In this document: positions 2,677 through 6,642 of the stretch, in pieces
Numbering within the stretch: position 1 is the first letter of the stretch
Layout: every line of letters begins with the position of its first letter
Source: a virus
Direction: 5' to 3' (one strand)
DNA: 21,432 bases
Virus record (IMG/VR): IMGVR_UViG_3300032287_003299
Location: 1-21,432 of that record
The notes under the pieces: model-generated
Databases searched by the model: none
What the model saw: only the letters and a program-made list of their open reading frames with translations
Told to the model about the DNA's origin: nothing
Translations under genes and position numbers: made by a program

Positions 2677-3468
2677 ATGACTGAAGAAGTCCAACAAGCC
2701 TTAGCGGAAGTTGAATCCGCGCCAGCAGCCGAGGTGACGGCCACCACGGACACTGCACAAAACGCGCCGGAAGTAGCTGAGAGTCAACCCGAGCAGACGC
2801 CCGAGGAGAAGAAATTTTCCCAGGCCGAGATCGACGCGATGATCAGCAAGCGCCTTGCCAGAGAGCAGCGCAAATGGGAACGTGAGCAGCAGGCTAAAGC
2901 CACCCATCAGGTGGTGAAAACGGAAGTCCCGCCTATCGAGCATTTCGAGTCGCCTGATGCCTACGCGGAAGCGTTGGCCGTCAGAAAGGCTGAAGAACTG
3001 ATCGCGCAGCGAGATTTCCAACGGCAGCAGGCTGAGATTAACGACGCTTACCACGACCGTGAGGAAGAGGCCAGGGCCAAGTACGACGACTTTGAACAAG
3101 TCGCCTACAACCCGCAGCTTCGAGTCACTGACGTGATGGCCGAGACAATCAAGGCGTCCGACATGGGGCCGGACCTAGCTTATTGGCTGGGAACCAACCC
3201 GAAGGAAGCTGATCGCATTTCCCGCTTGGCACCTCTTTTGCAGGCCCGAGAGATTGGGAAGATTGAGGCCAAACTTGGCTCCAATCCTCTTGTGAAACCA
3301 ACTACGTCTGCGCCTGCGCCTATTTCGCCTGTTACCGCACGCACCAGTGGAAGCCCGTCCTACGACACGACTGATCCTCGGTCTACCAAGACTATGACAG
3401 ACTCGCAGTGGATTGAAGCTGAACGTGCCCGGCAGATGAAAAAGCTGCAAGCGCAAATGAACCGCTAA
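2677..3468 (+). CDS. Capsid scaffolding protein (P22 gp8-like role)
   Basis: The 263-residue product is highly charged and mostly helical, with an acidic Ala/Glu/Pro-rich first 45 residues, then FSQAEIDAMISKRLAREQRK and a long coiled-coil stretch rich in E, R, K and Q to about residue 145. The C-terminal tail, DSQWIEAERARQMKKLQAQ, is a basic amphipathic helix of the sort that contacts coat protein in scaffolds. It sits directly before a P22-type coat gene, the position of gene 8 in P22, whose product I recall as about 303 residues. Scaffolds organise procapsid assembly and leave before or during packaging. Sequence conservation among scaffolds is weak, so the call rests on composition, the FSQAEIDAMISKRLARE signature and position. 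No separate protease domain is seen. Confidence 0.82.
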   Translation: MTEEVQQALAEVESAPAAEVTATTDTAQNAPEVAESQPEQTPEEKKFSQAEIDAMISKRLAREQRKWEREQQAKATHQVVKTEVPPIEHFESPDAYAEALAVRKAEELIAQRDFQRQQAEINDAYHDREEEARAKYDDFEQVAYNPQLRVTDVMAETIKASDMGPDLAYWLGTNPKEADRISRLAPLLQAREIGKIEAKLGSNPLVKPTTSAPAPISPVTARTSGSPSYDTTDPRSTKTMTDSQWIEAERARQMKKLQAQMNR

Positions 3469-4704: not shown

Positions 4705-4724
4705 GGGGGCTTCGGCCCCCTTCT
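4705..4724 (+). terminator. UUCG-loop hairpin after the coat gene (terminator or mRNA-stabilising)
   Basis: GGGGGC (4705-4710), TTCG loop, GCCCCC (4715-4720): a 6-bp all-GC stem closed by the extra-stable C(UUCG)G tetraloop, 6 bases after the coat stop codon. It is followed by TTCT and then a looser T-rich run, so termination may be partial. It could also block 3' exonucleases and stabilise coat mRNA. Confidence 0.7.
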
Positions 4725-4751: not shown

Positions 4752-5156
4752 ATGGCTCTCCCTAATGGTTCTGGTGGGTATCAGGTTGGCGCAGGCAACA
4801 CCAGTGAAGCGCAACTGATCGTTCAAGGCGCCCCCACTGCGATTACCGCAACAACCGCAACCCTGACCGGCGCTCAAATGGCCGTTGGGTTGATCACCAG
4901 CAACACCTCGGCTGACACCGTGGTTACGCTGCCTACCGTTGCCGATCTGGAAGCTGCAATCAGCAGCGCCCAGAAAGTCAACGCTGCATTCGATTTTGCA
5001 GTTGCCGTTGACGACACTGCGTATCAATGCACCTTGGCTACCGCTACTGGTTGGACGTTGCTCGGTAACATGGTGGTGTTGGAAAACACCGGCGCTTTGT
5101 TCCGCGCTCGTAAAACCGGCGACGGTACTTGGACTCTGTACCGCATTGCAGGCTAA
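4752..5156 (+). CDS. Probable capsid decoration or virion appendage protein (unknown family)
   Basis: The 134-residue product is small, slightly acidic and rich in Ala, Thr, Val and Gly, with alternating beta-strand patterns (for example ATTATLTGAQMAVGLITSN and DTVVTLPTVADLEAAI). It ends DGTWTLYRIAG, a closing strand seen in several small phage beta proteins. No transmembrane segment or enzyme motif is visible. It has its own strong ribosome-binding site (AAAGGA, 9 bases before ATG) and sits between two GC hairpins directly downstream of the coat gene, where phages often keep decoration proteins made in high copy. The decoration role is inference. It is confidently a real gene from its SD, codon use and clean spacing. 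Confidence 0.7.
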   Translation: MALPNGSGGYQVGAGNTSEAQLIVQGAPTAITATTATLTGAQMAVGLITSNTSADTVVTLPTVADLEAAISSAQKVNAAFDFAVAVDDTAYQCTLATATGWTLLGNMVVLENTGALFRARKTGDGTWTLYRIAG

Positions 5157-5164
5157 ACCCAAAT

Positions 5165-5186
5165 GGGGGCTCCGGCCCCCGTTTTT
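5165..5186 (+). terminator. Intrinsic terminator-like hairpin
   Basis: GGGGGC (5165-5170), TCCG loop, GCCCCC (5175-5180), then GTTTTT. A 6-bp GC stem and a short T-run make this the best-formed terminator of the three hairpins in the head region. The downstream gene starts 12 bases later with its own AAAGGA, so readthrough must supply that mRNA unless a hidden promoter exists. Confidence 0.75.
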
Positions 5187-5198
5187 AAAGGATAAAAC

Positions 5199-5684
5199 AT
5201 GCCTAATACCAAGCCTGTAGGCGTCGCGTTTAGCGACCCTGAATTGACTTCTGGCACCACTGTAAGTGGTGCAGTAATTGACGGCAGCGCAATCGGTGCA
5301 ACAACGCCATCAACCGTGGTCGGCACTACTGTTTACGCTACAACCGAAATCGGCTACACCGCCGCCGCACAAGGTACTGTGACGCAGGCAACCAACAAAT
5401 CGACAGCGGTCACGCTGGACAAGTCTGCTGGTCGCATCACAATGAACAACGCATCGTTGGCAACCTCCACCAATGCGACGTTCGTTTTGAACAACAGCAC
5501 CATTAGCGCCAACGACGCGGTGATTTTGACCATCTCTGGCGGGCAAACTACTCCTGGCTCATACAACGTATTTGCCAATGCTTTGTCTGCTGGTCAAGTC
5601 AGCATTACCTTACGCAACATTTCGGGCGGGTCGCTGTCCGAGGCTGTTGTCATCAACTTCGCAATTGTTCACTGCGCAAGCTGA
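5199..5684 (+). CDS. Beta-sandwich virion protein, probable decoration or fibre component
   Basis: The 161-residue product splits in two. Residues 1-50 are a low-complexity Ser/Thr/Gly segment. The rest is a conserved phage beta domain: GTVTQATNKSTAVTLDKSAG, RITMNNASLATSTNATFVLN, STISANDAVILTIS and ISGGSLSEAVVINFAIV. This domain recurs in fibre and appendage proteins of many environmental phages as a trimeric beta-sandwich. No enzyme motif is present. Placement immediately after the coat and the 134-residue gene, inside the hairpin-bounded cassette, suggests a capsid-surface protein. Its stop codon is fused to the next gene's Shine-Dalgarno. The domain resemblance is from memory and the exact structural role is inference. 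Confidence 0.72.
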   Translation: MPNTKPVGVAFSDPELTSGTTVSGAVIDGSAIGATTPSTVVGTTVYATTEIGYTAAAQGTVTQATNKSTAVTLDKSAGRITMNNASLATSTNATFVLNNSTISANDAVILTISGGQTTPGSYNVFANALSAGQVSITLRNISGGSLSEAVVINFAIVHCAS

Positions 5685-5689
5685 AAGGA

Positions 5690-5709
5690 GTGGGGACTTC
5701 GGTCCCCAC
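5690..5709 (+). promoter_or_regulatory. Hairpin between Shine-Dalgarno and start codon of the 65-residue gene
   Basis: GTGGGGAC (5690-5697), TTCG loop, GTCCCCAC (5702-5709): an 8-bp perfect stem with a C(UUCG)G tetraloop. AAAGGAG (5684-5690) lies just before it and ATG (5712) 2 bases after it. Unfolded, SD and ATG are about 21 bases apart. Folded, the gap collapses to a few bases. It has the same form as the terminators at 4705 and 5165 but lacks a T-run. Confidence 0.7.
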
Positions 5710-5711
5710 TT

Positions 5712-5909
5712 ATGGCAATAATTTACCTCACACACCCCATCCACGGCGCTAAGGTTGCGACGATGGACATGGAAGCCGATTTGGATGTTCAAAACGGCTG
5801 GTCGCGGTACAATTTCGAGACCGTTGAAGAAGTGGCTGAAGAAGTCAGCCCCGAGCCTGTAGCACGGCGTGGCCGTCGCAAAAAGGACGTTTTAACCGCA
5901 GAGGAATAG
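5712..5909 (+). CDS. Small conserved phage protein of unknown function
   Basis: The 65-residue product reads YLTHPIHGAKVATMDMEADL followed by NGWSRYNFET, then an acidic stretch and a basic RRGRRKKD before the end. The first 37 residues look like a compact domain and I recall similar small proteins between coat and neck genes of other P22-like phages, without known role. The start is unusual: the only good Shine-Dalgarno (AAAGGAG) is about 21 bases upstream, separated by an 8-bp hairpin. Start alternatives inside the gene have no better SD. The stop is one base before the start of the adaptor gene, so translation of the two is probably coupled. Possibly a head-completion factor, but nothing in the sequence proves that. 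Confidence 0.65.
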   Translation: MAIIYLTHPIHGAKVATMDMEADLDVQNGWSRYNFETVEEVAEEVSPEPVARRGRRKKDVLTAEE

Positions 5910-5910
5910 C

Positions 5911-6642
5911 ATGACGACCTACACCGCAGGCGAACAGATTAACCGGGCGTTGCGGCTGCTAGGCGTCCTAGCCGAGGGTGAAACGCCATCGGCGTCAGTG
6001 TCTCAGGACTCCCTGATGGCGCTCAACCAGATGATCGACTCGTGGAACACCGAGCGTCTGGCGGTTTTCTCCACCATCGACCAGATCGTCAACTGGCCGA
6101 CCGGCTCAATCAACGAGACTCTTGGCCCCAGTGGTTCGCTGGTGCGCCTGAACGGCACTGCCGTGCGGCCCGTTCTGGTGGACGACGCCACCTACTTCAA
6201 AGACCCCGGCACCGGTGTGTCGTACGGTATCAAGCTGATCAATCAGCAGCAGTACGACGGCATCGCGGTCAAGACTGTGACCTCGACTTTTCCGCAGGTG
6301 ATGTTTGTCAACATGACCTACCCGGACATTGACATCTTCATCTACCCGCGCCCAACGCGGCTGCTGGAGTGGCACTTCATCAGCGTTGAGGAACTGACGC
6401 AGCCGGCCAATCTGTCCACCCAAATTCTGTTCCCGCCAGGCTACCTGCGGGCGTTCACCTACAACTTGGCCTGCGAGATCGCGCCAGAGTTCGGTGTCGA
6501 ACCAAGCCCCCAGGTGCAGCGTATTGCGATGTACAGCAAGCGCAACTTGAAGCGCATCAACAATCCGGACGATGTGATGTCGATGCCGTACTCGCTGATC
6601 GCCACGCGGCAGCGGTACAACATCTACGCCGGTAACTACTGA
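5911..6642 (+). CDS. Head-tail adaptor / tail accessory factor, P22 gp4 family
   Basis: The 243-residue product starts with TAGEQINRALRLLGVLAEGE, then DSLMALNQMIDSWNTERLAVFS (spanning about residues 33-54). This is the hallmark N-terminal helical region of P22 gp4-type adaptors. Gp4 binds under the portal after packaging and begins to close the channel. The product is longer than P22 gp4 (about 166 residues as recalled), with a C-terminal half carrying YPDIDIFIYPRPTRLLEWHF and FPPGYLRAFTYNLACEIAPE, which is typical of the wider environmental family. The gene follows the 65-residue gene by one base and shares a TGATG overlap with the gp10-like gene, consistent with coupled expression of stoichiometric neck parts. 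Confidence 0.88.
   Translation: MTTYTAGEQINRALRLLGVLAEGETPSASVSQDSLMALNQMIDSWNTERLAVFSTIDQIVNWPTGSINETLGPSGSLVRLNGTAVRPVLVDDATYFKDPGTGVSYGIKLINQQQYDGIAVKTVTSTFPQVMFVNMTYPDIDIFIYPRPTRLLEWHFISVEELTQPANLSTQILFPPGYLRAFTYNLACEIAPEFGVEPSPQVQRIAMYSKRNLKRINNPDDVMSMPYSLIATRQRYNIYAGNY

Follow-up and report, generated by a model that had tools for sequence, protein, structure and literature searches.

A terminator-like hairpin between Shine-Dalgarno sequence and start codon: a probable split ribosome-binding site in a P22-like podovirus

Two genes of phage T4 are the closest described cases of a ribosome-binding site interrupted by RNA structure. At gene 38 the Shine-Dalgarno sequence (SD) lies ~22 nt from the AUG, and a hairpin between them brings the distance to ~5 nt (PMC3014915). 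At gene 25 (the gene 26-25 junction), the same article, citing Nivinskas 1999 and Malys and Nivinskas 2009, describes a hairpin that shortens 27 nt to 11 nt, an intercistronic element that one lineage has conserved and more distant relatives lack. Structures that mask the ribosome-binding site and reduce initiation are, according to this article, shown for mobE and implicated for segB. Our search of the openly accessible literature found no published hairpin-bridged start outside T4.

With genes 38 and 25 as precedent, the locus described here fits a known kind: as at gene 38, a hairpin lies between SD and AUG and would shorten the distance, and as at gene 25 an intercistronic hairpin would split the ribosome-binding site. 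Unlike that of gene 38, the hairpin belongs to the upstream gene as its terminator-like stem-loop, has a cUUCGg or UCCG loop and occurs in a P22-like podovirus. Unlike at gene 25, with its folded distance of 11 nt, the folded distance would be ~5 nt in our window and 7-11 nt in relatives, and the hairpin is more widespread than the SD. At mobE and segB a hairpin likewise stands at the start of a phage gene, but there it is reported to reduce initiation, whereas most of the SD in our window is outside the strong stem. The locus would extend the T4 cases in that a terminator-like hairpin is used, the arrangement appears repeatedly within one phage family and unrelated phages show signs of it.

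The window, that is, the whole stretch of 21,432 nt analysed (a 21-kb virus record), is a fragment of a freshwater P22-like podovirus. Its head genes stand in P22-like order: scaffold, major capsid (phrog_283), a decoration gene at 4752, an Ig/adhesin-like gene at 5199, a small gene at 5712, the head-tail adaptor at 5911 and head closure at 6642. The Ig/adhesin-like gene (5199..5684, + strand, 161 aa, phrog_18251) matches the Pfam adhesive domain pAdhesive_15 weakly, below threshold, and ends at TGA 5682-5684. The small conserved gene (5712..5909, + strand, 65 aa) encodes a member of a head-module protein family with the pattern IYLxHPxHGxKVA...NGWxRY and a basic C-terminus; neither this protein nor its relatives matched Pfam or PHROG, and no relatives were found in bacterial and archaeal genomes. 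In L040 (MW202483.1) the small gene is present at 3128-3331 and unannotated, the tblastn match having no feature under it. An Rfam search of the window matched no known RNA family, and a scan found no promoter in the leader of the small gene.

Most other genes of the window have an ordinary SD, and so do both genes that lie behind the hairpins at 4705 and 5165. The hairpin that comes after the major capsid gene (4705..4720, + strand) is followed downstream by AAAGGA before ATG 4752; the one after gene 4752 (5161..5184, + strand) is likewise followed by AAAGGA before ATG 5199. The tail adaptor gene next after the small gene (5911-6642) serves as a further comparator, with an ordinary SD, AGAGGAA, at 5900..5906 (+ strand).

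For the small gene itself, AAAGGAG (5684..5690, + strand) lies 5' of a hairpin with an 8-bp stem and a cUUCGg loop (5690..5709, + strand; 5' arm GTGGGGAC at 5690-5697, loop TTCG at 5698-5701, 3' arm GTCCCCAC at 5702-5709), which is followed by a 2-nt linker, TT (5710..5711, + strand), and ATG 5712. Direct reading confirmed each of these elements of the sequence-only reading, together with the gap of 21 bases between G5690 and the ATG; unfolded, the SD is thus farther than ~15 nt from the start, no SD-like sequence occurs between stem and ATG, and the interval holds a stable hairpin. The leader hairpin folds at -21.0 kcal/mol (z = -3.55), a stability that none of 200 shuffled sequences matched. 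The predicted stem has 10 bp rather than 8, a G.U and an A-U pair being added (5688-5711), so that the GAG of the SD and both linker bases fall inside it. The earlier claim that folding brings SD and ATG within a few bases accordingly needs amending: in the full 10-bp minimum-energy stem the gap is zero and part of the SD is masked, and a spacing of 5 nt, within the ~5-11 nt taken as functional, is obtained only if the stem is opened to about 6 bp, the inner core at 5692-5707. The calculated energies are -19.1 kcal/mol for the 10-bp stem and -12.3 kcal/mol for the core; opening from 10 to 6 bp costs 6.8 kcal/mol, which the duplex of SD and anti-SD (-7.5 to -8.2 kcal/mol) would pay for, leaving the spacing of 5 nt.

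We consider this leader to be, probably, a split ('accommodated') ribosome-binding site working by hairpin bridging. Lying this near to the next start codon, the hairpin would take up the position of the ribosome-binding site; the 30S subunit would pair with AAAGGAG, opening the weak base of the stem, and the inner 6-bp cUUCGg hairpin would stay folded and be looped out, reducing the effective spacing from 21 to ~5 nt and allowing the gene to be translated. Re-initiation may contribute as well, through ribosomes that terminate on the upstream gene at the neighbouring TGA and would transiently open the hairpin. Two features of the leader count against bridging: the full 10-bp stem, masking the GAG and leaving no gap, could repress, and a purine-rich stretch 5' of a terminator stem can originate as its A-tract. 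The first of these invites an inhibitory reading, in which the stem, covering the GAG and abutting the ATG, masks SD and start codon and keeps the small protein low, as in some T4-like homing endonuclease genes (shown for mobE and implicated for segB according to PMC3014915). We think this quite unlikely, as the SD motif is at the weak edge, outside the strong stem, most relatives keep the stem with no SD to mask, and the same arrangement precedes genes that must be expressed, such as the terL described below.

In the window TGA 5682-5684 is in frame with ATG 5712, and nine open codons separate them with the hairpin directly downstream of the stop, a layout in which hairpin-stimulated UGA readthrough could fuse both proteins. 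Such a fusion is extremely improbable; most relatives use TAA, and we rejected it on the reading frame from stop to ATG, which is not conserved (58/49/48 over the three frames).

To place the leader among its relatives, ~320 loci were gathered by searches with the small protein, the upstream protein, the adaptor and two annotated phages; a distinct leader was taken from the upstream stop to the small-gene ATG, with the start set by the conserved N-terminus. The same 30-mer, with the loop base left free, is found in 9 further viral contigs, a near-identical set that makes up the window lineage, in which the stem is identical and the loop alone varies (UUCG to UCCG). Among 161 distinct hairpin leaders of the small gene, an SD follows the hairpin in 13, a motif (AAGGA, GAGGA, AGGAG or GGGAG) precedes it with none after in 39, and neither side has one in 109. 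The window's arrangement, SD before hairpin, therefore occurs beyond its near-identical lineage, in several other leader types of the family: the 39 leaders fall in 6 leader clusters and use different stems and loops (GGGGGC-CACAA, GGGGAGGCC-AAAAA, GGCCCC-UUCG and CGGGGC-UUCG), with spacings of 7-11 nt folded (2-5 nt for the window type) and 22-31 nt unfolded. On a tree of the small protein, which has few columns and evident recombination, the SD-before state underwent at least eight changes on well-supported branches.

Decoration genes behind the same kind of hairpin on the same contigs are organised differently, with the SD after the hairpin in 253 of 255 distinct leaders, at a spacing of 5-9 nt, and a motif before it in one of 255; the adaptor gene has its SD after the hairpin in 16 of 16 leaders. 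By this difference in SD position the small gene is special, and the hairpin alone does not predict where the SD will lie. Enrichment of SD-before leaders over the decoration genes is strong on distinct leaders (Fisher, P ~ 3e-15) and modest on leader clusters (P = 0.04 for the broader motif and 0.001 for the narrower), with a motif that was chosen after inspecting the data.

These counts bear on the plainer reading that the hairpin serves the upstream gene alone, as a (leaky) terminator or a stabiliser of its 3' end, with AAAGGAG arising by chance or as an A-tract and with poor translation of the small gene. Hairpins of the same type do stand behind the capsid and decoration genes, module swaps carry the hairpin along with the upstream gene (L030 vs. 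L027), and in most relatives the U content after the stem, ~4 T within 8 bases, resembles that of the comparators. In the window, however, the U-tract is just TT before the ATG, a poor terminator: the combination of GC-rich stem and direct U-tract that marks an intrinsic terminator is absent, and the scan listed none here on the + strand. With the motif before the stem at 39 of 161 as against one of 255 in the control genes, and with the scrambled-motif control in unrelated phages given below, we regard this plainer reading as unlikely. At the exchange point, L030/L031 and L027/L010 have nearly the same downstream gene start, preceded by hairpin and no SD or by SD and no hairpin, respectively, which puts the boundary of the exchanged module at the start codon.

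Paired comparisons favor bridging. The stem sibling L007 shares the identical hairpin but lacks AAGGA ahead of it and has 10 nt of linker, with TTCTACATCT before the ATG; in the window lineage AAGGA precedes the stem and the linker is 2 nt long. This paired difference in SD and linker length matches what bridging needs. Among leaders with the same core, GGGGGC/GCCCCC, GGA or GAA frequently stands opposite TTT as the three flanking bases in small-gene leaders (32 cases) and never does so in decoration genes; since AAA would pair equally well, selection for an SD is a natural reading of these flanks.

The hairpin is nonetheless most likely, and foremost, a terminator-like 3' element of the upstream gene, an assignment suggested by pairing kept through sequence change; nearly every relative has such a hairpin at this position. 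For the six inner stem pairs, 99.6% of cells are paired in 42 leader clusters defined at 80% identity, a value raised by our having found the hairpins through a search for pairing, compared with 77.7% when 3' arms are shuffled between leaders, a control for arm base composition alone. The inner pairs include GC, CG, AT, TA and wobble variants, supplying the compensatory changes that the sequence-only reading had proposed to look for among relatives, and the loops vary (UUCG, UCCG, CACAA, CAAAA and CUAAUCA). Its suggestion that the hairpin is a relic-like copy of the two preceding terminators is not supported: throughout the family the element is strongly conserved in this place and shows compensatory change, and its stem is unlike those at 4705 and 5165. 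In these phages, the hairpins behind capsid and decoration genes are alike in being GC-rich stems of UUCG type directly after the stop codon, and differ in having ~20 nt with a normal SD downstream of them. Relatives that lack the stem while keeping the same long spacing, which would have spoken against a role of the hairpin, were not found; hairpin-less relatives mostly have an SD-like sequence at ordinary spacing.

The 109 leaders that keep the hairpin with an SD on neither side count against bridging: it is not for bridging that the hairpin exists, and apparently no SD is required for this gene to be started. Their likeliest route, in our better guess, is re-initiation from the upstream stop, which lies ~27-40 nt from the ATG in almost all leaders. 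Extended to the window, this would mean that ribosomes finishing at TGA 5682-5684 remain bound to the RNA, unfold the hairpin and begin again at ATG 5712, any SD serving only to hold them. Translational coupling has been described for spacings of ~+23 to +25 nt, as has scanning by ribosomes from a stop codon (review PMC12548453), and we count this in favor of such restarts, as we do the leaders devoid of SD. As the explanation for the window we find it possible yet somewhat unlikely: a stable hairpin stands in the ribosome's path, another ATG occurs between stop and start in 24 of the 109 SD-less leaders, and the recurrent SD ahead of the hairpin is left unexplained. It is also conceivable, and to us quite doubtful, that the SD-less leaders reflect a family-wide non-SD start in which the hairpin, 7-12 nt before the AUG, itself positions or recruits the ribosome, SD-before leaders being repeated reinforcements of such hairpin-guided initiation. 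The SD-less small-gene leaders (e.g., L011:3967-4000, L104, L163 and L070) mostly start 7-12 nt after the hairpin, and nearly all decoration genes of these phages have an SD.

Hairpin-bridged initiation seems to recur in many other phages. We scanned viral contigs for the pattern AAGGAG-N5-CTTCGG-N5-(linker)-ATG and, as a control, for the same pattern with the scrambled SD GAAGAG. Among the matches listed, some of them near-copies, complementary arms were present in 23 of 121 for AAGGAG and in one of 120 for GAAGAG; 12 and 0 of these, respectively, also open an ORF of 60 aa or more that directly follows another ORF. Genes with this SD, UUCG hairpin and ATG in unrelated phages include terL (terminase large subunit), a T4-like endonuclease II and a tail fibre. 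The proposal that the hairpin may be needed for translation thus gains from comparison (recurrent SD-before leaders, the L007 contrast, energies with the 6-bp inner stem, unrelated phages and the T4 precedent), from which we infer the function.

Both gene-finding programs and models of expression expect the SD 5-10 nt ahead of the start. Should the looping-out of terminator-like hairpins be routine, starts would be mis-scored in many phages. The curiosity of T4 genes 38 and 25 would become a common device, whose natural variants, with the stem intact and the SD before it, after it or absent, could be compared side by side, and a 3' element of one gene would prove to be reused in the start signal of the next.

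Examples of the arrangement in unrelated phages are L339:9378, L348:614 (- strand), L347:4878, L343:1338 (- strand) and L329:561, with products that comprise endonuclease II, terminase large subunit, tail fibre and an unknown product. In leaders of this sort a TAA stop codon often overlaps the SD, as TAAGGAG.
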